DNA of 52,325 nucleotides, from IMG/VR virus record IMGVR_UViG_3300048597_000307, positions 1-52,325 of that record; one strand, 5' to 3'. The notes beneath the pieces were generated by a model. That model was not told where the DNA came from. It worked only from the letters and a program-made list of their open reading frames with translations, and did no database searches. Positions 6,313 through 42,359 of this stretch are shown piece after piece; within the stretch, counting starts at the first letter, position 1; each line of letters starts with the position of its first letter. Source of the DNA: a virus. The position numbers were made by a program, and so were the translations under genes.

Positions 6313-7797
6313 ATGCCCCGCGCAATAGCCTTTCGCCTCTATGTTGCCTGGGACGGCAGCAACTATATCAACGAGTCGGCGCGGCTTGTGCAGGCGACCG
6401 GCGAGAACCGTCTCACCAGCCCTGACCAGGTGGGGAGCGGGCGCGGCATTGTGGACCGCTGCAACCTCGAACTCGCCAACCAGGACGGCCGTTTCAGTCC
6501 GCTCAACACGGGGAGCCCGCTCTACGGCAGCCTGCAAAACGGCGGCGCCTACCACCGGCCGATGTATTTGGAAGTGAGCATTGACGGCGGCGGCACGTAT
6601 GCCAGGGTCTTCTCCGGAGTGGTCAAGCTGCCCCAGGAGCGCACGGCCAACCAGAACGGCACCGCGGCGGTGCAAATTGAATGCCGCAGCCATGACGAGC
6701 TGCTGCTCGGGCGGCGCATGTCCACCACGTCGGCCAACCTGCGGGCCATCAATGCCGCCGGTTACACCGAGGCCGACATCATCGCCGACTGGCTGACGCA
6801 GGCGGGCAAGAGCGGCGTCATCGACGACGGCCTGTTTGTTATCCCCTGGGCCTGGATGGACGACGAATCCGTCTTGGAGGAGTTGTGGCAGCTCGCCTTT
6901 GCGTGCGGCGGGCGTTTTTACTGCGACCCCGACGGCGTCTTCCGCTACGAGGATGCTACCCACTGGCTGAAAGCGCCGCACACCACCAGCCAGGAGACGC
7001 TCTCCCGCAGCACCTTTTTCAGCTTGGAACCGGTGTATGCCGACAATGAGCTGTACAGCAACATCAGCGTCGAAGCCTCGGCGCGGCAGCGGGGAGCCAA
7101 TGCCCTGTTGTGGGAACCGGATGAGCCGGTAGTGGTGCCGCCCAACAGCAGCAAGAGCATCACCGCACGGCTGCGGCAGCCCGCCTACAGCATCGATGCG
7201 CCCAACTTTGCGGCAGCGACGGCCGGGGGCAACAGCATCACTGGCAACGTCTCCGTCGCCGTCGTGACGGCCAACGCCCAGCGCATCGAGCTGAACGTCA
7301 CCAACACGCACGCCACGGAAGCGGCCTACCTGCACCCATTCAGCATTACCGGCGTCAACCTCCTGGGTGGGCCGACGTTGGAGGAGACACGCGACAGCGC
7401 AACGCACGGCAGCAACGGCGCCTGGTGGGCGGCACGCGGCACGCGCTCGAAGACGGTGCGCGGCAACCCCTACATCCAGACCGGCGCGCACGCCGCCACG
7501 TTGGCGACGTTCCTCTTGCAGCGCAGCGAGCGGCCCCGGCTGACCTACAAGCTCGGCCGGTGCGCAGGCAAGCCCAGCCGCCGCTGCGGCGACCGTGTGA
7601 CCCTCAGCGACCCTACTATCATGAGCAGCGACCGGGCAGCCTTCATCACCGGTATTTCATGGCGCCTGACGTCGAACGGCTTCTCGCAGGACATCGAAGC
7701 CATTGACGCCGCCGGGCTCTACCCGTATGAGACGGAGGGATACTTCGTCCTCGGCACGCACACCCTGGGGGCGGCAACCAAGCCGATATTCTACTAA
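6313..7797 (+). CDS. Putative tail hub / tail-associated protein
   Basis: A 494-residue protein two genes after the tape measure, where the baseplate hub or Tal-type protein is encoded. The N-terminal region reads as a beta-rich hub domain: a GRGIVDRCNLELANQDGRFS stretch followed by short strands (YARVFSGVVKL, AAVQIECRSHDELLLGRR). The later part carries FYCDPDGVFRYED and a C-terminal domain near WRLTSNGFSQDIEAID. No catalytic motif is evident, so I do not call it a lysin. The stop overlaps the next start (TAATG). Confidence 0.65.
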   Translation: MPRAIAFRLYVAWDGSNYINESARLVQATGENRLTSPDQVGSGRGIVDRCNLELANQDGRFSPLNTGSPLYGSLQNGGAYHRPMYLEVSIDGGGTYARVFSGVVKLPQERTANQNGTAAVQIECRSHDELLLGRRMSTTSANLRAINAAGYTEADIIADWLTQAGKSGVIDDGLFVIPWAWMDDESVLEELWQLAFACGGRFYCDPDGVFRYEDATHWLKAPHTTSQETLSRSTFFSLEPVYADNELYSNISVEASARQRGANALLWEPDEPVVVPPNSSKSITARLRQPAYSIDAPNFAAATAGGNSITGNVSVAVVTANAQRIELNVTNTHATEAAYLHPFSITGVNLLGGPTLEETRDSATHGSNGAWWAARGTRSKTVRGNPYIQTGAHAATLATFLLQRSERPRLTYKLGRCAGKPSRRCGDRVTLSDPTIMSSDRAAFITGISWRLTSNGFSQDIEAIDAAGLYPYETEGYFVLGTHTLGAATKPIFY

Positions 7798-8207
7798 TGC
7801 CCTACACCAACATTCCGACCCTCGCCGATGGTCAGATTCTGACGGCGGCGCACCTGAACCTGCTGGCAGGCAATGCCAACTTCCTCGGCGGCTTAGGTGG
7901 CGTACCGGCGGTTTCCTTCCCGCACTACACCACCTCCACCGGCGGCAGCAAGAGCTGGCACATCCGGCACCGGCACCGCTACCTGCACGTCTACGTGGAC
8001 TTCGTCGCCAATCCCGACTATTTCCAGGTCTATTACAACAATGTCCAGGTGTACAACAACGGCGACCCGAGCGGCACGCTCACGCTGAACCTGGACCTCA
8101 ACGGTCTGACCCTGGCTGTCGGCGGCTGGTATGAAGTGCGGGTTAACGCCGGGTTTGTTGGCGGGTCGAGCATGTCGGTCAAGCTCATCTGGGAATCGCC
8201 CACGTAG
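7797..8207 (+). CDS. Minor tail protein, unknown
   Basis: A 136-residue protein whose start ATG 7797 shares a base with the previous stop. The N-terminus (ADGQILTAAHLNLLAGNA) is a motif I associate with phage tail-tip and fibre-attachment proteins. The rest is strands rich in Tyr/Asn/Gly (YFQVYYNNVQVYNNGDPSGTL), as in a small carbohydrate-binding or receptor-binding beta-sandwich. The next gene has a similar N-terminal motif. Confidence 0.6.
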   Translation: MPYTNIPTLADGQILTAAHLNLLAGNANFLGGLGGVPAVSFPHYTTSTGGSKSWHIRHRHRYLHVYVDFVANPDYFQVYYNNVQVYNNGDPSGTLTLNLDLNGLTLAVGGWYEVRVNAGFVGGSSMSVKLIWESPT

Positions 8208-8215
8208 GAGGCGCT

Positions 8216-8581
8216 GTGGCCATCAAAGTCTGGCAGCATGGCGACCGGCCCACGGCGGCGCAAATCAACGAATACAAAACGGTGCTCGATGCCGCCAATG
8301 CGGCAATGTCCCCGCGCGACGCCTACAGCCCCGGTGCACCCATGCAGTTGGCGGCGGAGCACATGACGGAGGGCAGTTTCACCGTGTTTCATGCCTATCG
8401 CTACCTGCACTTCGGCAGCACCGGCAAGCTGGTCAGCGCCGACGGGACGCAGGAGGTCAGTCTCAGCGAAGGCGATAACGAAGTCGGCGTCGTTGACCTG
8501 GAACGGCTCGACTGGCTGGCCTATGGCGTCACCTATTTTGTCACCGGCGTCACCTGGTGCCAGGAGGATTGGGAGGGCTGA
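8216..8581 (+). CDS. Minor tail protein with fibre-attachment-like N-terminus
   Basis: A 121-residue protein starting at GTG 8216 behind a clear GGAGG. Its N-terminus (WQHGDRPTAAQINEYKTVLDAANA) is analogous to the previous protein's start, suggesting the two share an anchoring segment. The rest is beta-rich (FTVFHAYRYLHFGSTGKLVS) and closely parallels the Arg/His-Tyr-Leu-His pattern of its neighbour. The pair may be paralogous tail-tip proteins. Confidence 0.6.
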   Translation: MAIKVWQHGDRPTAAQINEYKTVLDAANAAMSPRDAYSPGAPMQLAAEHMTEGSFTVFHAYRYLHFGSTGKLVSADGTQEVSLSEGDNEVGVVDLERLDWLAYGVTYFVTGVTWCQEDWEG

Positions 8582-11470: not shown

Positions 11471-11821
11471 ATGGATACGCAGCAGCAACAGGACGACGTA
11501 ACCGAGGTTACAGCCACGCCGGAACCGGGCACGCCGGAACCGGGCACGGCCGAACAGCCCAGTGAACAGACTGCCGCCGTGCCGGACCCGATTGCGGTCA
11601 AGGCGCAACAGGCGCTGGAACGCATGAGCTATTTGACGCTCAGCCTCGTCCAGCAGCGTGAGGAGCTGGCGCAGCAGGAGCGCGAGGCTGAGCTGCTGGC
11701 GGCAGACATTGCACAGCGCCGGCTGCGCATCACGGCGCAGGAGGAGGAACTGCAACGCGTCCGCGGCGCAGTGACCGTCCTAAACCAACTGCAACAGGAA
11801 CTTGCCCAGGGGGCCAAATGA
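11471..11821 (+). CDS. Coiled-coil protein, unknown
   Basis: A 116-residue protein: an acidic Thr/Pro/Glu-rich N-terminus containing a repeated TPEPG element, then a long Glu/Gln/Leu coiled coil (residues about 45-114; QQREELAQQEREAELLAADI and onward). I chose ATG 11471 because of AAGGAG at 11454-11459. ATG 11444, overlapping the previous stop, is in frame and would add SNRRRRRH. The stop overlaps the next start (ATGA, 11818-11821). Possibly a linker or trimerisation partner for the surface proteins on either side. Confidence 0.6.
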   Translation: MDTQQQQDDVTEVTATPEPGTPEPGTAEQPSEQTAAVPDPIAVKAQQALERMSYLTLSLVQQREELAQQEREAELLAADIAQRRLRITAQEEELQRVRGAVTVLNQLQQELAQGAK

Positions 11822-14784
11822 ACACGCACCGCACCCACATCACCGCCATCACGATCCTGACCATCCTCTTGAGCCTGCTGGCGTTCGCACCGGCGCAAGC
11901 GCAGACACCCACCGCTACCCCGGCGACAGGCAGCTACATCCTGCGGCCGGGGGCTGGCGGCGGTTTTATCATTGAGCTGCGACCGCACACGCCGACGCCG
12001 CGCCCGACCGCAACGGCGACGCGCACGCCTGTGCCGACGATGACGGCTACGGCGACCGCTACGCCCCAGCCGCCCACGGCGACCGCCACGGCACTCCCGG
12101 CGACGGCCACCAATACCCCAACGGCGCTCCTGCCCACGGCGACGGCCACAGCCACACCGACACAGACGCCGCCTGTGCAGGCGACAGGGCCGCTGACGGT
12201 CAACGTGCCACTAACGGGCCTACTGCCGGGCGACGAGGGCTTTAACGCCAACAACTGGGGCATCGTCTGGGCCGGGGACATTTCGCCCGCAGGCGGCTAC
12301 AGCCAGGCACGCATCATTGGGGGCGACTCTGGCGTGCTGGTGTACGTCCAAAACATGACGCCTAACGCAGGCGGCACGTTCGGACTCAACCTCAACGGCC
12401 GCGCCTTTCCCGGTACGCTGCGCGACGGCAGCGGCTGGGAGTACGGCGGCACAGGCATCGGCTGGCGCGGCTGGTCTGCGTCGCGGCTGATACCGTGGGC
12501 CGAGTTGGGCGGCAAGCCGCAGCCGGGGGACGTGTGGCCGCTGGTGCTGACCAGCGTGGGCGGCGAGCAGTGGGTGGGCGTGCTGCACTGGGGCCTGCCC
12601 GAATACGCCGGACAGACCGGCACGCATACCGTCACGGTGCCTGTAGTGCGCGACGCCAGTCTTGGCGGCGGCACTGATTGTGGCAACGATGACGACCCCA
12701 ACAACAGGCTCTCGCCGACGTGGTTTGCGGACTGGGGCGGACTCTCGCGCGGGATGTGGGGCAGCGGCACAATCAACCTCGGGCAAATCACCTACGCCAA
12801 CGTGCAGAACCAGTGGGATACGACCGACTGGCCCTGCTATGCGCGCTACCTCGCAGCCTGGCAACTGCCCGCACTGCCGGCCGGCGCCACTGTAACCGGT
12901 GCGTGGCTAGATGTATACAACTTCGGGCATAGCTGGCCCCGGCCCGGCGACCCCCAAATGGACACGCTCTACACCACCATCCAGGCGCACGACGTGTCGC
13001 CGCAGTGGGATGAGACGGCGGTCACCTGGGACAATGCGCCTGCGCCGCGCGAGAATGTGTCATGGACGCGGTGGGACCTCTGTGCCGAGGGCGCAAACTG
13101 TACGCGGGCCCTGGACGTGACCGAGATTGTGCGCCGGGCCTACGCTGCCGGGTTGCCGGATGCGGCGGCGCTGCTGTATACCGCTGCGGGGAGCTATCAC
13201 AGCGGTCCCTACATTTACACGCGTGAGGGCGGTACTCCGCCCGTCGTGCGGATTAGCTACGAGCTGCCAGGAGGGCCAGTATGGACACCCACCCCACCCC
13301 CACTGCCTACCGCAGAGCCTACCAAAACACCGCCACCCGCACCGCCGAGTGCCACGCCTACCGCGACGAGCGCGCCGCCTGCGACGGCAACGCCAACCAT
13401 TGCGCCGAGCGCAACGCCTACACGCGCTGCGCCTACTGCGTCACCTACGCCGTCGTCAACCTCGACGCCTACGCCGGTGCCGCCACAGACGGCGGGCCGG
13501 ACCTACTACCTAAGCCCAGCGGGCAGTGACAACGCAGCCGGTACGTTCGCCGCACCCTGGCGCACGTTCGCCAAGGCGTGGCAGACACTCCAGCCGGGCG
13601 ACCTGCTCTTCCTGCATGATGGCACCTACACGCCGGACACAACCGGGGTCATGCAGCCCAACGGGCGCAACGGGGAACCGGGCAAGCCGATTACCATCAA
13701 GGCGCTGAACGACGGCAAGGCCACAATCGACGGGCAAGGCACGGCCATCCCCGTCAAGCTCGGCGACAACTGGCCGGGCAACATCGGGGATTGGTACGTC
13801 CTGGAGGGCGTGGTCGTGCGCAACGGCATGGACAGCGTGCTCCAGGTGCGCGGCAACCACAACGTTCTGCGCCGCGTGTCGGTCTACAATGGCGACCCGG
13901 ACGACAACACGCAGAACGTGCTGCTGTGGGGCAATGACAACCTGCTCGAAGACGCCATCGTCGGCGGTGCGGGGCGCTACATGGTCAACGCCTACACGTC
14001 GCGCGGCAACACCATCCGGCGCGTGCTGACGCTCTGGCAGGGGTGGGACGGGCGGCATTTCTGCGGGGTGACGTGGCCCAACGGCAACGCCATCGGCGTG
14101 TACAACGCATCTAACACCACGATCGAGAACGCCATCGCCTACGGGCGGGCGGTGACGGGGATTTTCATCCAGGCGAACGCGGACAACGCCACTGCCAACA
14201 ACAACGCCATCCTGGGGAGCATGGCGCTCAACAGCGGGCGCGACTATGACGGCAGTGTATGGCGCTACGGCTCCCCGACGTGGCCCGACCCGACGCGGCC
14301 AGGGCCGACCGCGGACAGGTGGAACGGGCGAGACTGCACGGACGCGGTCACCAACCTCGGACCGAATCAGCGCACCGGTTTTGAGCTTTGGGGACAAGGC
14401 ACCGTCACCGCCAACACCTACCGCGACGTGCTGGCGGCGGGCAGCGTGGGCTACGGCCTGAGCGTGCAACACCCCTATGGCGCGGGCGCGCAGGGCACGG
14501 TCATCGACCATGCGACCGTGCGCGGGACGGGCGGCGTAGAGCTGGATAGCAGCGATTACACCATCACCAACTCGCGGCTGGAGGGCACACGGTACGCCAC
14601 CCAGGGCGCGGGGATGCGGCCGTTGGCCTATGTGGACCGGGCGGCAGTCGGCACGCTCACTAGCTGGCCGATGGATGGCCGGGCGCGGGCCGAGTTGGGA
14701 CTGAGCATCGACGAGCTGTGGGCAGCGGCGTTGGCAGACGCGGCGCTGCCGGTGCCCGCGGGCGGGACGCAGTTGGGCAGGTAG
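11818..14784 (+). CDS. Secreted multidomain beta-helix protein with Thr/Pro linkers
   Basis: A 988-residue protein that begins with a textbook signal peptide (residues 1-28: basic start, hydrophobic core ITILTILLSLLAFAPAQA, AQA cleavage site). Next come a Thr/Pro/Ala linker (about 53-122), a beta domain (about 125-275), a domain resembling the DNRLRE/CBM96 module (about 280-478; note LPALPAGATVTGAWLDVYNF), a second Thr/Pro linker (about 485-560), and a right-handed beta-helix of pectate-lyase/DUF1565 type (starting GRTYYLSPAGSDNAAGTFAAPW, then NTT/NN turns). Such linkers and modules are typical of secreted proteins of Chloroflexota. It is embedded in the tail operon, so it could be a spike-like depolymerase or a host-derived secreted enzyme that acts on sheath polysaccharide. 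The substrate is unknown. Confidence 0.75.
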   Translation: MNTHRTHITAITILTILLSLLAFAPAQAQTPTATPATGSYILRPGAGGGFIIELRPHTPTPRPTATATRTPVPTMTATATATPQPPTATATALPATATNTPTALLPTATATATPTQTPPVQATGPLTVNVPLTGLLPGDEGFNANNWGIVWAGDISPAGGYSQARIIGGDSGVLVYVQNMTPNAGGTFGLNLNGRAFPGTLRDGSGWEYGGTGIGWRGWSASRLIPWAELGGKPQPGDVWPLVLTSVGGEQWVGVLHWGLPEYAGQTGTHTVTVPVVRDASLGGGTDCGNDDDPNNRLSPTWFADWGGLSRGMWGSGTINLGQITYANVQNQWDTTDWPCYARYLAAWQLPALPAGATVTGAWLDVYNFGHSWPRPGDPQMDTLYTTIQAHDVSPQWDETAVTWDNAPAPRENVSWTRWDLCAEGANCTRALDVTEIVRRAYAAGLPDAAALLYTAAGSYHSGPYIYTREGGTPPVVRISYELPGGPVWTPTPPPLPTAEPTKTPPPAPPSATPTATSAPPATATPTIAPSATPTRAAPTASPTPSSTSTPTPVPPQTAGRTYYLSPAGSDNAAGTFAAPWRTFAKAWQTLQPGDLLFLHDGTYTPDTTGVMQPNGRNGEPGKPITIKALNDGKATIDGQGTAIPVKLGDNWPGNIGDWYVLEGVVVRNGMDSVLQVRGNHNVLRRVSVYNGDPDDNTQNVLLWGNDNLLEDAIVGGAGRYMVNAYTSRGNTIRRVLTLWQGWDGRHFCGVTWPNGNAIGVYNASNTTIENAIAYGRAVTGIFIQANADNATANNNAILGSMALNSGRDYDGSVWRYGSPTWPDPTRPGPTADRWNGRDCTDAVTNLGPNQRTGFELWGQGTVTANTYRDVLAAGSVGYGLSVQHPYGAGAQGTVIDHATVRGTGGVELDSSDYTITNSRLEGTRYATQGAGMRPLAYVDRAAVGTLTSWPMDGRARAELGLSIDELWAAALADAALPVPAGGTQLGR

Positions 14785-14793
14785 GGGCGACAC

Positions 14794-16866
14794 ATGGCAA
14801 TCGCGTTTCGGGCAGCGGCCACCGCGCAGGGCAGCGGCAACAACCTCACCATCGCCAAGCCTACGGGGGTAGTGCAGGGCGACCTGTTGTTGGCGGCGTT
14901 TGGCATCAAAACCAACGACGGCATCAACAGTGCGCCGTCTGGTTGGACGCTGCTCGATTCGCTGCTCAACGGCGGCCACGGTTGCGCGGTCTACTACAAA
15001 GTGGCCGGGGCGTCGGAGCCGACTTCGTACACGTGGAACTACGGCAACGAAGAATGGGACGAGATGGCGGGGGCCATCGTCGCCTACAGCGGCGTAGACA
15101 CCACGACCTCCGTCGAGGCGTACACCGAATTTGGCACGACGCATAGCAATTTCAAGGCGCTCAGCGTTACGACGCTCAGTGCCGATGCGGTTCTCCTGGC
15201 CATCGCCGGTACGGGCGAATGGGCGTTCGCCAACTCGACCACGACCGTGCCAAGCGGCTACACGCAGCGCGCATCCATCAAGACGGGCGGCACGGGCGGC
15301 GTGCTGCTGGCCGACAAAACGCAAGCCACTGCGGGCGCGAGCGGCGACGCGTCGTTTACGCCGAGTGACTTGTATTTTGTCGTCACCTACCACCTGGCGC
15401 TCAAGCCCGCGGGCGGCGGCAGCGTAACCAAGACTGTCACGGACGCCGGTGCAGGCAGCGACGCCATTGCCCAGCTGCGCGTGGCGTTCGGCGTCACCGA
15501 TGCGGGCGTAGGCGCAGACGGGCTGGGAGGACGGGCGGCGGCGGTCGCAACTACCGACAGTGGTACGGGTGCGGACGCGCTGGGCCAACTGCGGGCGGTG
15601 CTGGCGGCGGTTGACGCCGGCGCAGGCACGGATGCGCTGGCCCAGATGCTGGCGGCGCTTGCGCTGGCAGACAGCGGCGCCGGAGTGGACGCGGTGAGCG
15701 TGCTCGCGGCTGCGCTCAAGCAAGTCCTGGACAGCGGCGCAGGCGTGGACAGTGTGCTGCAACTGCTGGCAGGGGTGACGGCCGCTGACGCCGGGACGGG
15801 GCTCGACCTCGTGGCGCAGCTGCTGGCGCGGCTCAACCAGGCCGACGCTGGAGCCGGGACCGACGTCATCGCCGGCCTCGCTGCGGCGCTGGGCATAGCG
15901 GACAGCGGCGCAGGCGTGGATGCGCTCGGCAGTGTGGCTGCGGCGCTGACGGTCGCCGATGCCGGGACCGGGGCCGACAATCAGGCGGTGAGTGTCACGC
16001 TGACGGTGACGGACAGCGGCGCGGGGGTTGATGCGGCGCTCCAGCTGATCCTCATTGCCGTAGCCGATGCGGGCAGCGCAGTAGACAGCCTCAGCAGCAT
16101 CACGGCGACGATGACTGTGCCGGACGCTGGCGCAGGCGGCGAGCTGCTGACGGTGGCGGCAACGGTGAGCGTGGCCGACGCGGGCAGCGGGGCCGAGGCG
16201 CTGGCGCTGTTGACGGAGGCGCTGAAACAGGTGTTTGACGCCGGCTTTGGCGCTGACACCGTGCTCCCGCCTGCGGTGAGCGTGACGGTGAGCGACGCCG
16301 GCAGCGGGGCCGAGGCGCACACTATCAGCGTGACGCTGAGTGTGGCTGACGATGCGGCCGCGAGTGACCTTGTAACCATCGTTACGGGGGCGATCCGGAC
16401 GGTGCTGGACCTGGGCGTCGGGGCCGACCTGGTGAGCGTGGCAGTGGCGCCGCTGCTGGTTGCGGATGCGAGTGCAGGCAGTGAGACGACGGGCGTCAAT
16501 GTGGCGCTGACGGTGAGCGACGCCGGCAGCGGCGCAGACAGCGTACTGCAGCTCATGCTCATTGCAGTAGCGGACCTGGCTACCGGCGTGGATGCGGTCG
16601 GCAGTGTGAGCGTCAGTGTGCCGGTGGCGGACCTTGGCCAGGGCCTCGACGTGCTGGGCCAGGTGCGGGCGGTACTCAATCTGCTCGACGCTGGCGCAGG
16701 TCTGGATGTCACGGTTTCTTTCGATTCGGCGGTGCGGATCGTGAAGATCATCTTCACGCTGCGCGCCCGCCGGATTGTGTTCGGTTTCAGCACGCGCAGC
16801 ATCACATTCGGGTGGGCGCTGCGGTTGGTTGGGTTTGAACTATCAGGAGTTGGAGGTAACGAGTGA
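14794..16866 (+). CDS. Repetitive surface/tail protein with about 23 DAGxGxD repeats
   Basis: A 690-residue protein. Residues 1-206 form a beta-sandwich domain seen in phage tail and secreted proteins (AKPTGVVQGDLLLAAFGI, APSGWTLLDS, VYYKVAGASEPTSYTWNYG). From about 213 to 640 there are roughly 23 tandem units of 18-21 residues with consensus [V/A]-x-D-[A/S]-G-[A/T/S]-G-x-D-x-(hydrophobic rich, about 11). The GxGxD core resembles the RTX calcium-binding nonapeptide but the period is about double. The last 45 residues are hydrophobic and basic (IVKIIFTLRARRIVFGFSTR). An elongated fibre or adhesin role is likely by structure; no function is proven. Confidence 0.7.
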   Translation: MAIAFRAAATAQGSGNNLTIAKPTGVVQGDLLLAAFGIKTNDGINSAPSGWTLLDSLLNGGHGCAVYYKVAGASEPTSYTWNYGNEEWDEMAGAIVAYSGVDTTTSVEAYTEFGTTHSNFKALSVTTLSADAVLLAIAGTGEWAFANSTTTVPSGYTQRASIKTGGTGGVLLADKTQATAGASGDASFTPSDLYFVVTYHLALKPAGGGSVTKTVTDAGAGSDAIAQLRVAFGVTDAGVGADGLGGRAAAVATTDSGTGADALGQLRAVLAAVDAGAGTDALAQMLAALALADSGAGVDAVSVLAAALKQVLDSGAGVDSVLQLLAGVTAADAGTGLDLVAQLLARLNQADAGAGTDVIAGLAAALGIADSGAGVDALGSVAAALTVADAGTGADNQAVSVTLTVTDSGAGVDAALQLILIAVADAGSAVDSLSSITATMTVPDAGAGGELLTVAATVSVADAGSGAEALALLTEALKQVFDAGFGADTVLPPAVSVTVSDAGSGAEAHTISVTLSVADDAAASDLVTIVTGAIRTVLDLGVGADLVSVAVAPLLVADASAGSETTGVNVALTVSDAGSGADSVLQLMLIAVADLATGVDAVGSVSVSVPVADLGQGLDVLGQVRAVLNLLDAGAGLDVTVSFDSAVRIVKIIFTLRARRIVFGFSTRSITFGWALRLVGFELSGVGGNE
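15430..16715 (+). repeat. In-frame tandem repeats, about 57-60 bp each, about 23 copies
   Basis: The DNA coding for the DAGxGxD units forms a long degenerate tandem array in a GACGCCGG/GACAGCGG-type pattern. Units differ in third bases and in a few residues, so the array is old or under selection and not a recent slippage product. Such arrays can change copy number by recombination. Confidence 0.8.
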
Positions 16867-17594
16867 ACACGGAACAGATTTTTTACAGGACACGCTGGCA
16901 GGTCACCCGCTACGCCGATGAAGCTGGGTTTGCGGCGGGGAAGGCTTCGGCGGTGGTGGGCGGCGACGGCAAACAACTGCCGGCCGTCTCGGTCGTGGAG
17001 GGGAACCTCCTGCTGCAAGAGGGCATTACCCGGCTGCTGAACCTGCTGATCGGCGGCGGCGGCACGGTGTACAGCAATGCTAACGCCCGCATCGGCGTCG
17101 GCGACGGCGCACCCAGCGCGCTCGCCGGCACGCTCGGCTTCACCAGCGGCTCGGCCAACGTCACCGGCACCGGCACGTCGTTCACCACGGCGCTGGCGGT
17201 GGGGGATCACCTGGTGGGGCCGGACGGCCAGATCTACACCGTCCAGACCATCACCAACAACACGGCGCTGGTCCTGACCGGCAACTACGCCGGCGCGACG
17301 CAGAGCGGCGTCACGGTCAACAAAATCACCCGCGCCATTGCCACCCAGACGGACCTGCTGGCAAGCACTAACAAGCTCTATAAAGCGATGGACGCCACGT
17401 TCCCGCAGATCAGCGCGCAGACCGTCACCTTTCAGGCGCAGTTTACCGGTGCGGAGGCAAACTACGCGTGGAACGAGGTCACGGTAGACAACGGCAGCTC
17501 GGCGGCGGAGAACTTCAACCGCAAGGTGGCATACAACGGGGTCAAGGCCTCGGGCCAGGTCTGGACGTTACAGCTGAGCGTAACAATCGGATAG
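16863..17594 (+). CDS. Tail-module structural protein, unknown
   Basis: A 243-residue protein starting at GTG 16863 behind GGAGG. It is beta-rich with a central Gly/Thr/Ser segment (GTLGFTSGSANVTGTGTSF) followed by FTTALAVGDHLVGPDGQIYTVQTITNNTALVL, a pattern frequent in phage tail and baseplate-associated proteins. It overlaps the previous gene by four bases. The role is not known; its place suggests a fibre-associated or tail-tip protein. Confidence 0.6.
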   Translation: MNTEQIFYRTRWQVTRYADEAGFAAGKASAVVGGDGKQLPAVSVVEGNLLLQEGITRLLNLLIGGGGTVYSNANARIGVGDGAPSALAGTLGFTSGSANVTGTGTSFTTALAVGDHLVGPDGQIYTVQTITNNTALVLTGNYAGATQSGVTVNKITRAIATQTDLLASTNKLYKAMDATFPQISAQTVTFQAQFTGAEANYAWNEVTVDNGSSAAENFNRKVAYNGVKASGQVWTLQLSVTIG

Positions 17595-17597
17595 ACT

Positions 17598-17927
17598 ATG
17601 AGGCAACCCATTGAGCAGGTGAACGAGAAGTCCACCGCATATCTCACCGCCACCTTCAAGGACAAGGCTGGGGTCGCACAGGCCCCAGCTTTGGCCCACT
17701 ACCGCATCGACGATGTCGAAAGCGGGCAGACGGTGCGGGGAGAGACGGAAATCACGGCGCCGGGCGCAGTCGTCGAGCTGGTCCTCACCGTGGTCGATAA
17801 CACGCTGGTCAACCAAGCTGCCAAGCATGAGTTGCGGCGTGTCACTGTTGTAGGAGAGTATGGCGCGGGCGACGCTGTGACGGCTGAGTATATCTATGAT
17901 GTCGTCAATCTGAAGGGCGTCAGTTAG
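17598..17927 (+). CDS. Ig-like beta protein of the tail module
   Basis: A 109-residue protein starting three bases after the previous stop. It reads as a single beta-sandwich (STAYLTATFKDKAGV, APALAHYRIDDVESGQTV, AVVELVLTVVDNTL, HELRRVTVVGEYG). A fragment with clear similarity (VEIHLTVTDNTLKNSEAPREH) is found at 35617-35733, so this family has moved or been duplicated within the genome. Function unknown; likely a structural accessory. Confidence 0.65.
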   Translation: MRQPIEQVNEKSTAYLTATFKDKAGVAQAPALAHYRIDDVESGQTVRGETEITAPGAVVELVLTVVDNTLVNQAAKHELRRVTVVGEYGAGDAVTAEYIYDVVNLKGVS

Positions 17928-17938
17928 GCAAGAAGTTT

Positions 17939-18580
17939 ATGCGCGTACTGGTCATCGCACCCGACCAGCCTGGAATCAACACACGGCCGGAAATCCGGCA
18001 GATTCAGCGCCGCCACCACATGTCAGTGCTGGACGGCACGGTAACGGCAACGGACATCTATGAATGCTGTAGAGAAACGCACTTCGATGTGCATCACTAC
18101 GCAACGCACTCGGGGCCGGATGGCGTGGAGCTGTCCAACCAGGTCATCTTCGGCCCGGAGGAGATTGCGCAGGTGGCGCGTCTCAAGGAAACGCAGACGT
18201 TGTTCTTCAACAGTTGTCAGGCGGGCAAGCTGGCGAGCTATGCCGTGCGTCACGGCTTGCGCTATGCTGTCCACACCAACATCGACCTGGAGGACGCCGA
18301 AGCCTGGAAGGCGGCCATTGCCTTCTATGGCAGTATGGAGAACGGGCACGCCAAGGACATCGTCGGTGCCTATGTAGTGGCGGATTCGGGCGACGGCGAA
18401 TATGGGCTCGCCGTTTCGCCCACCTATATCCAGGAACTGCAAGCCCGGGCAGCGGCGGCCATTTTGCCCACAGCGGGCATGGTGACCATCAACCGCTGGC
18501 AGATGGTGCTATTCGGCATCGGCGTCCTGCTGGCGTCGGGTGCCTGGACGATGCTCATCAATGTGCTGTCGGGCCGGTAA
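17939..18580 (+). CDS. CHAT-family (caspase-like) protease candidate with C-terminal membrane anchor
   Basis: A 213-residue protein that follows the CHAT pattern through its length. The first strand is RVLVIAPD (2-9), then a basic helix (EIRQIQRRHH, 18-27), FDVHHYATHSGPDGVELSN with candidate catalytic His57, a hydrophobic strand and LFFNSCQAGKLASY with candidate Cys93. Then comes LEDAEAWKAAIAFYGSMENG (117-136), matching the family's D-x-x-A-x-x-F-x-x-x-FY block. Residues about 186-209 are one transmembrane helix. It lies right after the tail genes and 13 bases before a membrane protein gene, where lysis genes are expected. The protease call is by motif recognition. Substrate and role (lysis, exclusion, host killing) are unknown. 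Confidence 0.7.
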   Translation: MRVLVIAPDQPGINTRPEIRQIQRRHHMSVLDGTVTATDIYECCRETHFDVHHYATHSGPDGVELSNQVIFGPEEIAQVARLKETQTLFFNSCQAGKLASYAVRHGLRYAVHTNIDLEDAEAWKAAIAFYGSMENGHAKDIVGAYVVADSGDGEYGLAVSPTYIQELQARAAAAILPTAGMVTINRWQMVLFGIGVLLASGAWTMLINVLSGR

Positions 18581-18593
18581 CAGAGGGGGAACC

Positions 18594-18902
18594 ATGCATG
18601 TAGGCTTTCTGGCGCAGGAATCCGCCACGGTCGCCAGCGCAATGTCACTTGTCTTCGCGGCGATTATCTTGTTCGCCTGGCTGCTGGGCTTTCGAGCGCG
18701 GTGGATGCTGTTTGGTGCGGGCGGTCTGCTGGGGCTCTGCGTCTACTGGGGAATGCTGGCGGTGTCCGCCGGGCCGGCGCCGGTGGTCAGTCGAGCGGAC
18801 ATCGCCTTGTGGGTGCGCGTCGTCTTGCTGGTGGCGTTCTCATTCCTCACCGTCGCCTTCGGCCTAATCGCCGGGCGGCTGTGGCGGTGGGGTAGGATTT
18901 GA
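18594..18902 (+). CDS. Small membrane protein, holin-like
   Basis: A 102-residue protein with three predicted transmembrane helices (about 14-34, 37-57 and 72-95), short loops and a basic end (GRLWRWGRI). A Shine-Dalgarno (GAGGGGGA) precedes ATG 18594. Size and topology fit a holin, and it is the partner of the CHAT-like gene. Its stop codon TGA is formed partly by the first bases of the palindrome at 18898-18923. Confidence 0.6.
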   Translation: MHVGFLAQESATVASAMSLVFAAIILFAWLLGFRARWMLFGAGGLLGLCVYWGMLAVSAGPAPVVSRADIALWVRVVLLVAFSFLTVAFGLIAGRLWRWGRI

Positions 18903-25637: not shown

Positions 25638-25685
25638 TATTAGTATTGGATTTATACTTATACTTAATATTGGGCCGGACTAAAT

Positions 25686-25806
25686 CATGATTAACTCATG
25701 AGTAGGTCATGACTAACTCATGATTAACTCATGAGTGCTGCATGATGTTTACTTGCATAGCTCATGCGTGGCTCATGCGTCGGTCCTGAGCAGTTCATGC
25801 GCTACT
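25686..25806. repeat. 11-bp-phased tandem array (11 units): origin, centromere or integrase-arm candidate
   Basis: Starting at 25686, a CATGA/CATGC-type word recurs every 11 bases: 25686, 25697, 25708, 25719, 25730, 25741, (25752 degenerate), 25763, 25774, 25785 (CCTGA) and 25796. The best units read CATGATTAACT. One unit per helical turn puts all sites on one face of DNA. Possible roles are a ParR/RHH-type partition site (R1 parC also has 11-bp repeats), replication iterons next to the AT-rich tract, or arm/Xis sites for the adjacent integrase. Confidence 0.8.
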
Positions 25807-26749
25807 CAGGTTTTCGTCTTGCCTTGAGGGTCTCGACGGGGCTGTACTGGGCATGGGCGCGGCGCAGGTCTTCGTCGAGGAGCTTGAGATAGCGGTTGAT
25901 GACCCGCAGGTCGCTGTGCCCCATGAGGCGTTGCAGCGTGGCGACGTCGCCGCCGTTGCGGAGGTAGCTCAAAGCAAAGGCGCGGCGGAAATCGTGCATG
26001 CCGGGCGTGGGGATGTCGGCCTGGGCGGCGCGGCGGCGGACAATCTGGAAGATGCCGCTTTTGGTCAGAGGGGTGCGCTGGCGGGTGCGCCAGAGCGGCT
26101 CACTGGCCTGCAGCTCTGGCAGGTGGCGCAGGTAGGCGTAGAGGGCGCGGCGCGTGGTGGCGCCGGCAAAGACGGTGCGCCACTTGCGACCTTTCCCCTC
26201 GCGCACCAGCACGGCCCCCGTGGCGAGGTCCACGTCGCCCATGGTCAGGGCGGTCAGCTCGGCATGGCGCAAGCCGGTATCGAGGAGCAGGAGCAGCAGC
26301 GCCCGGTCGCGGTCACCGGCAAAGGTCTTGCGCTCGCAGGTGGCGAGCATCTTGTCCAGGTCGCCCAGGTCGAGCGGGTCGAGCGGCGCATCGGGGCGGC
26401 GCGGGGCCTTGACCTTGGTGACGGGATTGACCCAGCCCGCCGGCGCATATTCGGCGGCGTACCAGTTGAGAAAGGCGCGCACGCTGCCGTAGATGTTGGC
26501 CCGGCCGCCGTCGCCGTGCTCCCGTTCGGCGAGATGCACCAGAAAGCGCCGCAGCGTTGCCGCGTCCACCTGCTCGGTGCGGGCGACGTCTTGTGCCCGG
26601 CAGAACGCCTGAAAGAGGGGCAGATTATGCTTGTACCAGTTGAGGGTTCCCGGCCGCAAGCCTTGCGCCTGGCGGTCGAGTTGGAATTCGGCGATGTCGC
26701 GGTCGAGGGGATTCTGGGCCGCCGATTTGTCGATTTTGGGGCGTCGCAT
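25802..26749 (-). CDS. int: Tyrosine recombinase (phage integrase)
   Basis: A 315-residue site-specific recombinase of usual length. Residues 15-105 form the SAM-like core-binding domain. The catalytic domain shows Arg161 (DTGLRHAEL), Lys in GKGRKW (186 or 189), His252-x-x-Arg255 (HDFRR), His278 (MGHSD) and Tyr287 (INRYLKL). It integrates and, with a directionality factor, excises the prophage. It lies next to a tRNA-Asn gene, and tRNA genes are frequent targets of this family. Its Shine-Dalgarno AAGGAGG lies in the stem of the hairpin at 26759-26793, so translation may be limited. Confidence 0.92.
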   Translation of the reverse strand: MRRPKIDKSAAQNPLDRDIAEFQLDRQAQGLRPGTLNWYKHNLPLFQAFCRAQDVARTEQVDAATLRRFLVHLAEREHGDGGRANIYGSVRAFLNWYAAEYAPAGWVNPVTKVKAPRRPDAPLDPLDLGDLDKMLATCERKTFAGDRDRALLLLLLDTGLRHAELTALTMGDVDLATGAVLVREGKGRKWRTVFAGATTRRALYAYLRHLPELQASEPLWRTRQRTPLTKSGIFQIVRRRAAQADIPTPGMHDFRRAFALSYLRNGGDVATLQRLMGHSDLRVINRYLKLLDEDLRRAHAQYSPVETLKARRKPE

Positions 26750-26815: not shown

Positions 26816-26891
26816 TGGCTCCCCGGGTTGGACTCGAACCAACAACATTTCGGTTAACAGCCGAACGCTCTGCCGATTGAGCTACCAGGGA
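26816..26891 (-). tRNA. tRNA-Asn (anticodon GTT), CCA encoded
   Basis: On the minus strand the full cloverleaf is present. The acceptor stem TCCCTGG pairs with CCGGGGA; the D-arm is AGCTCAATCGGCAGAGC. The anticodon stem-loop is TTCGGCTGTTAACCGAA with anticodon GTT, and the T-arm is GTTGGTTCGAGTCCAAC. The discriminator G is followed by an encoded CCA, 76 bases in all. A complete tRNA beside the integrase could be a translational helper or carry the attachment core that restores a host tRNA-Asn gene after integration. Confidence 0.93.
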
Positions 26892-30135: not shown

Positions 30136-30850
30136 CATTGAAATCGCCAAGCAACTGCCCGCAGGCTGCGAGAACTGGCTTGAGCACGCGCCACTCGGCA
30201 TTACCTGTGCGGCCATCGCCTACCGTGACGCCGCCGGGACACTGGTCACGACGGTGCATTATACCGATACGCAGTTTTGGGCGACCGACGCCGTCAGCTT
30301 CCTGGCCCATCTCTACCAGTTGCGCGAGGAGGGCTATACCCTCTTGAGCTGGAACGGCTGCGGCTTCGACCTCCAGGTGCTGGCGCAAGAGAGCGGCTTC
30401 TACCACCTCTGCGGCGACTTGGCACTCAAGCATGTGGACCTGATGCTGGAAGTGTTCTGCCGGCAGGGGCACTATCTGGCGCTGGACAAGGCGCTGGCCG
30501 GCGCCGGGCTCAAGAGCAAGCTGCATGACGTCACCCTCAAAGACGGCACGGCCGTGAACGACATGAGCGGGGCGGCGGCGCCGCAGTTGTGGGCGGCCGG
30601 TGAGCACGAAGCCGTGCTGGCCTATCTGCGCCGGGATGTGGAGGGCCTGCTGGAACTGGCGGAGTGGGTGCTCGCCAACGGCTGCATCCAGTGGACCAGC
30701 ACCAGCGGCAAACGGCAGCAGGTGCCGGTGCTGAAGCTGTCGCCGGTGGCGCAGTTGTTTGCGCTGCCCGAGCCGGATACCTCCTGGATGCAGAACCCCA
30801 AGCCGCGCACGCAGTTCACGGCCTGGATTCCGATGGGGGTGAAACTGTGA
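30116..30850 (+). CDS. DnaQ-like (RNase H fold) 3'-5' exonuclease
   Basis: A 244-residue protein with the exonuclease pattern: Asp7/Glu9 in AAFDIEIAK, Asp85 in LLSWNGCGFDLQVLA, Asp108 in KHVDLMLEVF, and Tyr170...Asp174 in AYLRRDVEGLLEL. This matches predicted ribonuclease H-like nucleases of the YprB/DnaQ group. ATG 30116 follows AGGAG. It may process recombination or replication intermediates. The stop overlaps the ParA start. Confidence 0.75.
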   Translation: MKLAAFDIEIAKQLPAGCENWLEHAPLGITCAAIAYRDAAGTLVTTVHYTDTQFWATDAVSFLAHLYQLREEGYTLLSWNGCGFDLQVLAQESGFYHLCGDLALKHVDLMLEVFCRQGHYLALDKALAGAGLKSKLHDVTLKDGTAVNDMSGAAAPQLWAAGEHEAVLAYLRRDVEGLLELAEWVLANGCIQWTSTSGKRQQVPVLKLSPVAQLFALPEPDTSWMQNPKPRTQFTAWIPMGVKL

Positions 30851-31608
30851 TTGTCACCGTCACTTCCCAAAAGGGCGGCGTCGGCAAGACCACGACGGCC
30901 GTCAACCTCGCCGCCGGTCTGGCGCGCGACAACATTGCGACGCTGCTGGTAGACCTGGACCCCCAGGGGCATGACGCCGTCTCCCTGGGCTGCGACCGCG
31001 AAAGCGGCTTGTTCAACTGGCTGGTAGGCGAACAGCCGCTGGTCAACTGCGTGCGCATCATGACCGAGGTCAGGACCAAGCGCCTGGACCAGCTCTGGCT
31101 GCTGCCCTCGGACAGCCGCACCAAGACGCTGGAAGCGGTCTTTCGCAGCGAAGCCGACGGCCCCGCTCGGGTGCGCGCTGGGCTGCAGGGCCTGCGGGCG
31201 CACTATCCCGCCGTCGTCTTCGACACTTCCGCAACGGGGCTGCTGCAAGAGACGGCGCTGGCCGTGGCCGACATCGTCGTCATGCCGACGCGCACCGAGG
31301 CGCTGGCCGTGGACGGCATCGAGAAGAATCTCGCCACGCTGCACAAGCTGCGCCCCAACTTCGGCAATTACTGCATCCTGCCCGTCGCCTATGACGAGCG
31401 GCTGCGGGAGCACCGCTACCAGTTGGGCCAGCTCCGCAGCTCGTATGCCGGCGCCGTGCTCCCCCCGGTGCCCGCCAGGACGGCGGTCGCCGAGGCGCAA
31501 GCCTACGGCCAAACCATCTGGGAGTACAGCCGGGACGGCATGGCGGAAGTGACCGCTGCCTACACCAACCTTGTCCGTCTGGTCAGGGGGGAACTATGCA
31601 ACGGGTAG
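30847..31608 (+). CDS. parA: ParA-family ATPase
   Basis: A 253-residue protein with a deviant Walker A KGGVGKTTT (residues 9-17), LLVDLDPQGH (Walker A' region) and VVFDTSATG (Walker B strand, Asp but with SA in place of the usual PP). It has ParA length, without an N-terminal HTH, as in small type Ib or phage ParAs. It starts at GTG 30847 overlapping the previous stop and overlaps a ParB-like gene by 13 bases, so the pair could partition a plasmid-like prophage or position DNA in the cell. Confidence 0.85.
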   Translation: MIVTVTSQKGGVGKTTTAVNLAAGLARDNIATLLVDLDPQGHDAVSLGCDRESGLFNWLVGEQPLVNCVRIMTEVRTKRLDQLWLLPSDSRTKTLEAVFRSEADGPARVRAGLQGLRAHYPAVVFDTSATGLLQETALAVADIVVMPTRTEALAVDGIEKNLATLHKLRPNFGNYCILPVAYDERLREHRYQLGQLRSSYAGAVLPPVPARTAVAEAQAYGQTIWEYSRDGMAEVTAAYTNLVRLVRGELCNG

Positions 31609-32981
31609 TGCGCAAGTCAACCGAAGACGTCACCCTGGCGGCTGACGTCGTGCGGCCGGGGGTGGAGCTCCTGAGCCTGCGCAATCTGCGCCTGGACGGC
31701 GGCACCCAGAAGCGCAAGACAGCAGCCGACTTTGTGCCGCCCTATCCCGGCGTGACCGACCTCGACACCCTGCACGAATACGCCGCCCTCATGGTGCAGG
31801 CGGGCGGCTGGGGGCCATTCCCGCCCGTCGATGCCGTCGAAGACGAGGAGCGCAATGTCTGGGTCTGGGACGGCTTTCACCGGCTGGGGGCACTGGCCGA
31901 GGCGCTGCGTCTCAGCAGCAACATCCCCGACACCGTCCTGGTCAAGGTGGCGTCGGGCAGCCGCCGCGACGCTGTCAGGCTGGCCTGCGGCGCCAACGCC
32001 CAGCATGGCCTGCGCCGCACCAACGCCGACAAGCGCAACAGCGTAACCACGTTTCTGCTTGACCCAGAATGGTCGCAGTATTCGGACCGCGAGATTGCGC
32101 GCGAGTGCAAAGTCAGCGACCGCATGGTCAACCAGGTGCGCGCCGAGCTTGAAGCGACTGCGAAAATTCGCAGTCAAACCGAGCGCCGAGGCGCAGACGG
32201 CCGGGTTATCAACGTCGCGCCCATCGGCGGCAAGGTGCGCTACGTGCCGGCGCACGAAGACCTCCCGCCTGCCGACGACTTCCCCGTGCGGCAGGTGGAG
32301 GACGGCAACGTCGTCCAGTCGAGCGCCCCGGCCTCGCGCGTGACCATGCCCGCGCTGGGCGTCTGCTCCGTCTGCCACCGGCCGCTCAGCGACCCCGAGC
32401 ATGCCGCCAACGGCTGCGGTCCGGTCTGTGCCGCCAAGAAGGCGACGGCCGCCGCCGAAGCGCAGCCCGAACTGCCGGTGTCGCTGCGACCCGACTACGA
32501 CGGCGACGAGTGGTATACGCCCCGGCGCTACATCGAACTGGCGGAACAGGCAATGGGCGGCATCGACCTCGACCCATGCAGCACCGCGGCGGCGCAGACG
32601 GTCATCGCCGCGGGCATGTTCTACGACAAAGCGCGCGACGGTCTGGTGCACATGTGGCACGGCCGGGTGTGGCTGAACCCTCCCTACTCGGACCCGGCGC
32701 CGTGGGTGCGGAAGCTGCTCACGGCCTACAACCTGGGCAACGTGACGGCGGCGGTGGTGCTGGTCAACAACGCCACCGAGACGGGGTGGTTTCAGTCGCT
32801 GCTGCGGCGTTTTCCGGCGTGCTTCCTCAGCGTCCGTATCGCCTACTGGCGGCCGGGCTATGCAGAAGACACCCTCGCCCGCCAAGGTCAGACGGTGTTC
32901 TACCTGGGGCCGAACGAAGACGCCTTCTGGCAAGCATGGAACGGCGTCGGCATTGTCGTCAAGAATCTGGCGGACCTATGA
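31596..32981 (+). CDS. ParB-like / HTH / zinc ribbon / Dam methyltransferase fusion
   Basis: A 461-residue composite. Residues about 15-145 form a ParB/Srx-like domain (WDGFHRLGALAEAL, 91-104, with the usual G-x-H-R loop), and 160-187 an HTH (QYSDREIARECKVSDRMVNQVRAELE in outline). Cys257/260 and Cys274/278 suggest a zinc ribbon. Residues 303-461 are an N6-adenine methyltransferase of the phage Dam type (DEWYTPRRYIELA, GGIDLDPCS, WLNPPYS at 359-365). ParB-like domains in phages can be partition CTPases or nucleases. The Dam fusion makes a DNA-modification role likely. A copy of the dispersed palindrome lies within its gene after the HTH. Confidence 0.8.
   Translation: MQRVVRKSTEDVTLAADVVRPGVELLSLRNLRLDGGTQKRKTAADFVPPYPGVTDLDTLHEYAALMVQAGGWGPFPPVDAVEDEERNVWVWDGFHRLGALAEALRLSSNIPDTVLVKVASGSRRDAVRLACGANAQHGLRRTNADKRNSVTTFLLDPEWSQYSDREIARECKVSDRMVNQVRAELEATAKIRSQTERRGADGRVINVAPIGGKVRYVPAHEDLPPADDFPVRQVEDGNVVQSSAPASRVTMPALGVCSVCHRPLSDPEHAANGCGPVCAAKKATAAAEAQPELPVSLRPDYDGDEWYTPRRYIELAEQAMGGIDLDPCSTAAAQTVIAAGMFYDKARDGLVHMWHGRVWLNPPYSDPAPWVRKLLTAYNLGNVTAAVVLVNNATETGWFQSLLRRFPACFLSVRIAYWRPGYAEDTLARQGQTVFYLGPNEDAFWQAWNGVGIVVKNLADL
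32156..32175. promoter_or_regulatory. Dispersed palindrome, copy 3 (perfect)
   Basis: GACTGCGAA-AA-TTCGCAGTC inside the ParB-Dam gene, read in frame as Ala-Thr-Ala-Lys-Ile-Arg-Ser. Location inside a ParB-like gene is suggestive for a parS-like site but proves nothing. Confidence 0.75.
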
Positions 32982-39151: not shown

Positions 39152-39263
39152 CGCCGCCGTCGCCGAGGGCCTGTTGAGCCCGGAGGACGCCGAAGCCGAG
39201 CGCCAGCGGCTGCTCACGGCCGGCTCACCCGCCCGGGCTGCAGCGGAGGTCAAACCGCTATGA
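39072..39263 (+). CDS. Small helical protein, unknown
   Basis: A 63-residue protein starting at ATG 39072 (AGAGG upstream). It has two helices (PEKRAAILRRIRNVQAQIVSAAVAEG; SPEDAEAERQRLLTAG). It overlaps the zinc-ribbon gene by 80 bases and the next gene by four. No family recognised. Confidence 0.5.
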   Translation: MTFADITPEKRAAILRRIRNVQAQIVSAAVAEGLLSPEDAEAERQRLLTAGSPARAAAEVKPL

Positions 39264-39664
39264 GACGCCCGCTGCTGGTCCCCATCCTGGCCATCCTGCT
39301 CCTGCTCGCCGTGGCCGTCCCGGCGCAAGCCGTGGACCTGTCCGGCTACCGACGCCCGCCATTGCCGCAGCGCGTCACCGTCCCGGAGGGTGCGCACCTG
39401 GTGCGCTACGTGGTCAACACCAGTCGCGGCGGTACGCTCACCTACATGGTAGGCGGCGCCACCTCGCAGCGGGACGCTGACCCCGGCGAGCGGTATGTGC
39501 TGTTTGCCGCCTACCCCGGCGATTTCCTCTATATGTCCGTCCAGAACGCCGGCGACCGGGGCGAGGTGTCCTGCGCCATCTACGTAGACCGGCAGCTTGT
39601 GCAGCAGGCGGAGAGTGACGCCGCCTATGGGATTGCGAGCTGCCAGGCGCAGACGCCGAACTGA
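39260..39664 (+). CDS. Secreted MmpS-like protein
   Basis: A 134-residue protein with a clear signal peptide (residues 1-24: MRRPLLVP, LAILLLLAVAVP, AQA). The mature part (VRYVVNTSRGGTLTYMVGG; RYVLFAAYPGDFLYMSVQNAG; VSCAIYVDRQLVQQAESDAAYGIASCQ) has the beta pattern and paired cysteines of MmpS-like secreted domains. It would be exported by the infected cell or lysogen. Role unknown; surface alteration during lysogeny is one possibility. Confidence 0.55.
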   Translation: MRRPLLVPILAILLLLAVAVPAQAVDLSGYRRPPLPQRVTVPEGAHLVRYVVNTSRGGTLTYMVGGATSQRDADPGERYVLFAAYPGDFLYMSVQNAGDRGEVSCAIYVDRQLVQQAESDAAYGIASCQAQTPN

Positions 39665-40782: not shown

Positions 40783-41571
40783 ATGACAAGCCAGTTGACC
40801 TCTCAGAATATCCGGTTCGGTGTCGAAATTGAATGCCTCATTCCGTCGGCTTACTCCGACATCTTCGTCCCTGGTGGCTATCACAACGGCAACCCCTTGT
40901 TGGGCGAGGGGCTCACCGGTTGGAACTGCCAGCATGACGGCAGCATCCGAACGGAAACCGGCTACGTAGGTGTCGAAGTTGTCTCCGGTGTCCTCTCCGG
41001 TGAAGACGGTCTGGTGCAGGTGGTGGCCGTGTTTGACCAGCTCAAGGCCATGGGTGCCAAGGTCAACGATTCCACCGGTCTGCATGTCCACATCGACGGC
41101 CGGCATATCCCCGACAGCCGGATTGCCGAACTGGTAGCCAACTATCGGGCCTACGAACGTCTGCTGTACGGGGTAAACGGCAAGAAGGCTGTCACCCGTT
41201 GGAACAACAGCACATACTGCAAGCCCTCTCACCTGTGGGGCACTGAGGGGTCAGCTTCGGTTGACCGGTATCGCGGCTTGAATCTGAAAAACTACTACAA
41301 CTACACCCAAAAGAAGACCGTCGAATTTCGCATGTTCGCCGGTACGTTGGATGCCGAAGTAGTTGTCGGGATTCTCTACATCCTCACCGGTCTGGTAGTT
41401 CGGACCCTCAACGACGGCACGTTTGCCGAGGATGCCGGACAGACGGCTGCACAGCAATTTCGCTCCTTCGGTGAGATGTTCCGGGGCACCCAGTATCGAA
41501 TTATCCCGGATGCACCGGTTTGGGACGTGTTGCTCCCTCTTGGCAAGTTGACCAAAAAGGCCAACATCTAA
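40783..41571 (+). CDS. Amidoligase-family (COOH-NH2 ligase) enzyme
   Basis: A 262-residue protein of the glutamine-synthetase-like amidoligase family (Amidoligase_2). FGVEIE carries Glu15/Glu17, then come HDGSIRTETGYVGVEVVSG (51-69), STGLHVHIDG with His101/His103, RYRGLNLKNYYNY and KTVEFRMFAGTLD (Glu181, Arg183). These are the expected metal/ATP-binding positions. The enzymes form amide bonds between carboxyl and amino groups in peptide modification or wall-like compounds. AGGAG precedes ATG 40783. The glutamine amidotransferase downstream is the typical partner. Confidence 0.85.
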   Translation: MTSQLTSQNIRFGVEIECLIPSAYSDIFVPGGYHNGNPLLGEGLTGWNCQHDGSIRTETGYVGVEVVSGVLSGEDGLVQVVAVFDQLKAMGAKVNDSTGLHVHIDGRHIPDSRIAELVANYRAYERLLYGVNGKKAVTRWNNSTYCKPSHLWGTEGSASVDRYRGLNLKNYYNYTQKKTVEFRMFAGTLDAEVVVGILYILTGLVVRTLNDGTFAEDAGQTAAQQFRSFGEMFRGTQYRIIPDAPVWDVLLPLGKLTKKANI

Positions 41572-41747
41572 GGCAACAGGGGCAAGACAAGGGACCGGAT
41601 ACTCAATCCGGTCTCTTGGTTAAAAGCCCCTAGAACGGCCTGGAACGGTTCAGACGGGCAAAACGGCAAATGTACTTTCAGCATTGCACAAACAAACGTC
41701 GGCCATCCTGTACAGCCAGTGAGCCGAATTTCAATGAAGGTGAAATC

Positions 41748-42359
41748 ATGATTGCACTCACACACCGGGGCACAGGGACCGACATCGTGGCCGGTATCGT
41801 CTCGGAACTCGGGGGCAAGCTGCAAACGGTCTCCGACAAACACACGGCCTACACTGCGCGGATGGACCGGCTGCTGCTGCTCGGGGGTGCCGACGTAAGC
41901 CCCTTTTTCTATGGTGAGCCGATTATTGATGCTCAACCCCCAGACCGCGACCGTGACGTCGTTGAATGGATTCTCGTTCGCCGTGCCATCACGGAACGGG
42001 TCCCCATCCTGGGTATCTGCCGGGGGCACCAGATGCTCGCCGTCGCCCACGGGGGCACGTTGTGGCAGGACATTGTCAACGGCCCCGGGGCCTACGAGCA
42101 TGGCACCTATCACAAGCTGAACCAGGTGCATAGCAAGCTGGCCGGTCGGTTGCCCACGCGAACGGTCAACAGCCTGCATCACCAGGCTGTGCGCGTGGTG
42201 CCGTTCGGTTTCGATGTGGCAGCACGCTCGCCCGACGGCATTATCGAATCGGTCTATCGCCCGGGCGCGCTGGGGGTTCAGTGGCACCCGGAGCTGCTCT
42301 ATCCGCGAGACCGCAAGTGGTTGGGGCTCTTTCAGTGGTGGTGGGACGGTCTCAAATGA
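41748..42359 (+). CDS. Class I glutamine amidotransferase-like (peptidase C26 type)
   Basis: A 203-residue protein with the triad nucleophile Cys91 in LGICRGHQMLAVAHGG and the His180/Glu182 pair in GVQWHPELL, plus LLLLGGADVSPFFYGE typical of gamma-glutamyl hydrolases. It may remove gamma-glutamyl groups or supply ammonia for the amidoligase encoded just before it. ATG 41748 has GAAGGTGA upstream. The 41572-41747 gap holds a hairpin (GACCGGAT/ATCCGGTC, near 41600-41620) without a T-run. Confidence 0.85.
   Translation: MIALTHRGTGTDIVAGIVSELGGKLQTVSDKHTAYTARMDRLLLLGGADVSPFFYGEPIIDAQPPDRDRDVVEWILVRRAITERVPILGICRGHQMLAVAHGGTLWQDIVNGPGAYEHGTYHKLNQVHSKLAGRLPTRTVNSLHHQAVRVVPFGFDVAARSPDGIIESVYRPGALGVQWHPELLYPRDRKWLGLFQWWWDGLK

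Follow-up and report, generated by a model that had tools for sequence, protein, structure and literature searches.

The window analysed here is the whole stretch of viral DNA, 52,325 bases long. Its two ends are identical over 127 bp (1-127 and 52199-52325); with this exact repeat at its termini, the window represents a complete genome of about 52.2 kb that is terminally redundant (circularised). The G+C content is 64%, and the genes recognised include those for a major tail protein, a tape measure protein, a terminase large subunit, a portal, a head morphogenesis protein and an integrase (25802-26749). By its sequence, the virus is a temperate tailed phage. A rightward run of genes passes through the tail module and ends at base 18902, where a leftward block starts. 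The last genes of this run are a tail-fibre-type gene (16863-17594, plus strand, with PHROG tail-fibre matches), a gene for a 109-aa protein (17598-17927, plus strand), the gene of interest (17939-18580, plus strand), which starts 11 nt further on with an ATG and encodes a predicted CHAT-domain cysteine protease of 213 aa (P0001), and a gene for a 102-aa protein with three predicted membrane helices (18594-18902, plus strand). The coding score of the P0001 gene is strong (67.5 bits in a codon model trained on the other genes of the window). Intergenic gaps in the run measure -4 to 50 nt, leaving little space for a separate unit around the CHAT gene, and no plus-strand promoter and no terminator were seen in this region. 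An earlier note made from the sequence had taken the last two genes for a phage late-gene pair, and the CHAT gene does lie at the end of the late (tail) operon.

The surroundings of the gene were also inspected for relatives. The 109-aa protein matches ORFs of other phages (L006-L009, phmmer, 50 bits), aligning with the N-terminal portion of a longer product of 316 aa encoded there at about 7487-8437; the rest of that product resembles a head-tail connector. No CHAT gene was found downstream of the tail-fibre relatives on reading loci L005-L024, and a search with the helicase-methylase neighbour returned no relatives. The tail region also encodes a 988-aa protein with a signal-peptide-like start and CBM96 and beta-helix matches (11818-14784). 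The 690-aa protein encoded at 14794-16866 has many DAGAG/DSGAG-type repeats, and repeats of this sort are also present in proteins encoded at several loci linked via the neighbouring gene.

The translation of the P0001 gene has the THSG motif with His57 and the NSCQAG motif with Cys93 at the residues given by the earlier note. The codon of the predicted catalytic histidine, within HYATHSGP, lies at 18107-18109 and that of the predicted catalytic cysteine, within FFNSCQAG, at 18215-18217 (both plus strand). Both residues are invariant in an alignment of eight CHAT sequences, in which the complete set of invariant positions, in the numbering of the relative P0003 described below, is L4, E18, H53, H57, N91, C93, A122, F129, Y130 and A149. 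The landmarks that had been read by eye thus coincide with the invariant residues of the alignment. A search for the HxATHSG...C pattern, spacing included, finds it a single time in the window and in none of 100 shuffles.

A motif scan of IMG/VR DNA, with the His and Cys blocks spaced as in CHAT proteins, yielded one true relative, the 226-aa protein P0003, encoded on contig IMGVR_UViG_3300031539_000683 (L026). The same gene, identical in its DNA, is present on a longer contig of 37.9 kb, IMGVR_UViG_3300031565_000153 (L028), so that the relatives found amount to one protein sequence in two contigs. The scans did not return L028 despite this identity; possibly they omit duplicates or are not exhaustive. 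The other matches of the scans were due to chance and lay outside any CHAT reading frame. P0001 and P0003 share 43% identity over 166 aa (147 bits), with the start codon, His57 and Cys93 in register. On L028 the CHAT gene follows a capsid-type gene after 56 bases, within which there is a stable hairpin, and precedes a head-tail connector gene, whose ATG overlaps the TAA stop codon of the CHAT gene. This hairpin (7962-7980 of L028) is a perfect GGGGGGC-UUCG-GCCCCCC structure with z = -3.6 and is not followed by a U run.

P0001 used alone gave no match in Pfam, including PF12770, or in PHROGs, NCBIfam, PADLOC or the PDB (phmmer), and searches of the collections with it as the query returned nothing. 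Weak tblastn matches in phages and plasmids were at chance level (E 2-9), and the phage matches proved on inspection to have no CHAT gene. P0003 exceeds the Pfam gathering cut-off for CHAT (26.4 against 24 bits, repeated in whole-record searches), a cut-off that is a detection threshold and not a biological feature; the assignment of P0001 to PF12770 therefore relies partly on transitive homology. The earlier note had suggested a search with CHAT profiles. A profile was built from seven plasmid proteins obtained by tblastn with P0003, several of them annotated as CHAT; it contains no phage rows, and its rows were chosen through P0003 and not through P0001. The four plasmid rows that were scanned (L036, L038, L039 and L041) all pass the Pfam CHAT cut-off. 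Against this profile P0001 scored 49.0 bits, while the best of 2,000 shuffles of P0001 reached 5.6 and the next ORF of the window 2.6. Comparison of P0001 with six of the plasmid CHAT proteins by hhalign gave a probability of 97.6% (E=3.3e-12).

Searches with the two phage proteins combined pointed in the same direction. The sole PDB match of the P0001-P0003 profile was 8tl0 (E=0.017), and when the plasmid CHATs were added the same entry was matched at 9.8e-27; 8tl0 is SAVED-CHAT (PMC11417357). Among 396 genomes of one phylum, the two-phage profile had matches in two genomes only, each time to a CHAT protein that scores above the Pfam cut-off (39.6 and 41.2 bits). The nearest relatives found among cellular proteins are short CHAT domains from Bacteroidota and cyanobacteria; they are effector-like domains, some of them fused to TIR/AAA or encoded beside NACHT or SIR2 genes. 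Taken with the homology to P0003, these results bear out the CHAT identity proposed for P0001, which by these comparisons carries a CHAT-type caspase-like domain with an intact His/Cys pair and would be expected to have protease activity.

Structure prediction contributed supportive evidence. The model of P0001, for which the input was an alignment of two sequences, was unusable (pLDDT 43.7) and had no Foldseek match below 0.001. The model of P0003 was also of low confidence (pLDDT 57.8), and its order of strands and helices fits the caspase-hemoglobinase fold. Its best four matches among 350,542 PDB chains were all SAVED-CHAT, with E values of about 1e-4; since the later matches were generic alpha/beta folds, we regard this result as supportive only. 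Among predicted viral structures, the best matches of the P0003 model were A0A1P8DJ94 (E=1.7e-6) and, second, A0A8S5MXG5 of a myovirus (E=1.1e-3), neither of which has a known function, followed by weak matches to caspase-fold proteins of eukaryotic viruses. On the strength of the models, A0A1P8DJ94 and A0A8S5MXG5 may be additional CHAT-like proteins of viruses; their resemblance to the P0003 model suggests that other viral cases may exist.

P0001 has a single strongly hydrophobic segment, at its extreme C-terminus, in agreement with the one transmembrane helix proposed there in the earlier note. The predicted helix covers residues 188-212 (core 189-207, hydropathy peak 2.06; 18500-18574, plus strand), and P0003 has a counterpart at residues 202-220. 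The sequence of the anchor is not conserved between the two proteins, and tail anchors are expected to vary. Basic residues precede the helix of P0001 and few charges follow it, so that by the positive-inside rule the CHAT domain would be located on the cytoplasmic side.

The 102-aa protein encoded next to P0001 raised the question of whether the two genes form a pair. Its gene begins 13 bases after the CHAT gene and has a codon score of 16 bits, weaker than that of the CHAT gene; despite this score it is probably a gene because it has a AGAGGGGGAACC-ATG start. The protein has three hydrophobic segments, and its charges fit an N-out/C-in topology, the arrangement of class I holins, so that a holin-like, three-helix product next to the protease gene is found as had been described. 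It resembles class I holins in its small size, three predicted helices and positive C-terminus, its gene lying here after tail genes; unlike them, it has no holin family match (Pfam, PHROGs) and no adjacent endolysin gene. No family match was obtained in PADLOC or NCBIfam either, and no phage homologue was found. The adjacency of the two genes holds in the window, but a fixed pairing is not supported: L028 has no counterpart of the 102-aa protein beside its CHAT gene and has the head-tail connector gene instead. The earlier note had named the lack of a conserved pairing as evidence against its proposal, and the pairing is lacking in this relative, the only one available. On present evidence the two genes do not appear to be a conserved unit, and the 102-aa protein is a possible partner of the CHAT protease.

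The two carriers of the gene are unrelated phages. An all-against-all comparison found no other convincing protein shared between the window phage and L028, two further matches of about 20 bits involving short or biased ORFs. Their G+C contents are 64 and 45%, respectively, and their terminases and portals belong to different families. The site of the CHAT gene also differs, after the tail-fibre-type and 109-aa protein genes in the window and between capsid and connector genes in L028. A common cargo located at different sites in unrelated carriers is what a mobile accessory gene would show, and judged from these two phages the CHAT gene looks like one. In both cases it lies within structural genes, which suggests that it is probably expressed late.

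A search of 50,697 deposited phage records with four cellular CHAT queries, P0001 and P0003 recovered no credible CHAT gene, so that such genes are at least rare in phages or overlooked. The sole repeated match of the cellular CHAT queries, MT836801.1 (L047, deposited as 'Bacteriophage sp.'), was rejected as a phage example. No phage gene is recognisable in it; its CHAT gene is accompanied by genes for a subtilisin-like protein and for a ROK-like regulator, and on account of this content it reads as a fragment of an actinobacterial chromosome. No description of a sensor-less, tail-anchored phage CHAT in structural operons was found in a literature search outside of which most subscription journals lay. 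The domain itself was already known. The occurrence of such proteins in two unrelated phages would mean that phages use this class of enzyme themselves, and the phage CHAT offers a catalytic pair that can be tested.

CHAT proteases are known chiefly as bacterial anti-phage weapons and cell-death enzymes, and those known are switched on by sensor parts such as SAVED, TPR or STAND NTPases. P0001 shares with the short effector-type members of PF12770 the active-site His and Cys and the order of the conserved blocks. Cellular CHATs occur as fusions with sensor or NTPase parts or within longer proteins. P0001 has the CHAT domain by itself with a tail anchor behind it, and its gene belongs to a phage structural operon. 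SAVED-CHAT, which is linked to type III CRISPR and is the best match among solved structures by both profile and fold, has a SAVED domain that binds cyclic oligoadenylate and starts a proteolytic cascade (PMC11229360). P0001 has neither the SAVED domain nor the CRISPR context. TPR-CHAT (Csx29, Craspase) is another CHAT protease used in conflict between phage and host (PMC9729208); it has an RNA-guided partner and a TPR region, both absent from P0001, and the solved Craspase chains were not matched in the PDB search with the profile of phage proteins and plasmid CHATs. No SAVED or TPR sensor and no CRISPR or CBASS neighbour was recognised in the complete window genome.

The reading that we prefer, to which we assign a probability of about one half (0.5) as a whole, is that P0001 is a late, tail-anchored, host-directed CHAT protease encoded by a mobile accessory gene. 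According to this reading, a single-domain protease with an intact active site would be tethered by its tail anchor to the host cytoplasmic membrane, on the inner side. The gene would be moron-like, moving between unrelated tailed phages, and its product would probably be made late in infection. Because the protein has no built-in sensor domain, it would probably be activated as it accumulates or clusters at the membrane, or else by a partner. The active protease would then probably cleave a host membrane or membrane-proximal protein, disabling a host function or defence late in infection. Of this scheme, the CHAT homology, the conserved His/Cys pair, the hydrophobic C-terminal segment, the place in the operon and the occurrence in two unrelated phages are observed; protease activity, late expression, the cytoplasmic orientation, a host substrate and the purpose are inferred.

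A role in lysis, in which P0001 and the three-helix protein form a module and the protease cuts its partner or a host envelope protein, triggering or timing lysis, is doubtful but survives best among the alternatives. The two genes close the tail operon, and the end of the tail operon is a usual place for lysis genes. The three predicted helices and the charges of the 102-aa protein would fit a class I holin. No lysis cassette with an endolysin beside a holin was encountered, and neither Pfam nor PHROGs recognised an endolysin among the called genes; since the genome is complete, this observation prevents a lysis role from being dismissed. An unrecognised endolysin may nevertheless be encoded, as many genes of the window match nothing. 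A further point in favour is the precedent of bacterial gasdermins, membrane pores activated by proteases, whose genes neighbour those of caspase-like proteases including CHAT (PMC9612521). As in those pairs, the protease gene of the window adjoins a gene for a membrane protein; unlike in them, the neighbour is a three-helix protein of 102 aa with no Pfam gasdermin match, and the pairing is not kept in L028. There, P0003 is encoded between capsid and connector genes and has no membrane partner, which argues against the module. The window also encodes a second small, hydrophobic protein of holin-like appearance near the portal gene (47895-48242, no PHROG match), another point against assigning the holin function to the 102-aa protein. 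The bolder proposal that phages have domesticated a cell-death protease of their hosts, the tail-anchored CHAT, beside a holin-like partner and in a genome with no recognisable endolysin, executing or timing lysis by proteolysis and not by cell-wall hydrolysis, is quite unlikely.

It is also unlikely that P0001 is an infection-triggered effector that guards the phage-carrying cell against other phages. Such a function would agree with that of most known CHAT proteases, which act in anti-phage or conflict systems (PMC11229360, PMC9729208, PMC10907252). The nearest cellular CHATs are effector-like, with TIR/AAA fusions or NACHT or SIR2 neighbours in some cases, and, the phage being temperate as indicated by its integrase, lysogens could benefit from the protection. 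On the other hand, P0001 has no sensor domain and no NTPase partner, PADLOC gave no match, and, with the gene in a late operon where no promoter of its own was detected, expression in a lysogen is not expected.

A protease acting in the virion or in assembly, which would process a structural protein of the phage or be packaged and delivered with the DNA, is improbable. The gene is surrounded by structural genes in both phages (capsid and connector in L028, after tail genes here), but a C-terminal membrane anchor is ill-suited to the assembly of soluble heads or tails, the neighbours differ between the phages and no substrate-like protein is common to them. The least credible alternative is a catalytically idle decoy, a dominant-negative anti-defence protein that would bind CHAT effectors of the host, or the partners of these effectors, at the membrane and so block them. 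P0001 does resemble the short effector-type CHAT domains found in host conflict systems, but His57, Cys93 and the active-site block are kept between distant phage copies, and a mere decoy would not need them.

Other features of the window genome were noted. Beside the integrase gene there is an array of 11-bp direct repeats of the GATTAACTCAT type (25678-25787), possibly binding sites for the integrase, an excisionase, or a replication or partition protein. A complete tRNA-Asn gene (26816-26891), a possible attachment site, has the integrase gene on one side and a repressor-like gene on the other. In addition to the integrase, the phage has a ParA-like ATPase gene that adjoins a gene for a fusion of ParB-like and DNA-methyltransferase parts (30847-32981), and the ParA-like and ParB-like genes may provide a plasmid-like partition. 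At 40783-42359 an amidoligase gene precedes one for a glutamine amidotransferase (peptidase C26). Finally, the region 39260-39664 encodes a small protein with an apparent signal peptide, the sequence of which may resemble that of MmpS-like secreted proteins.
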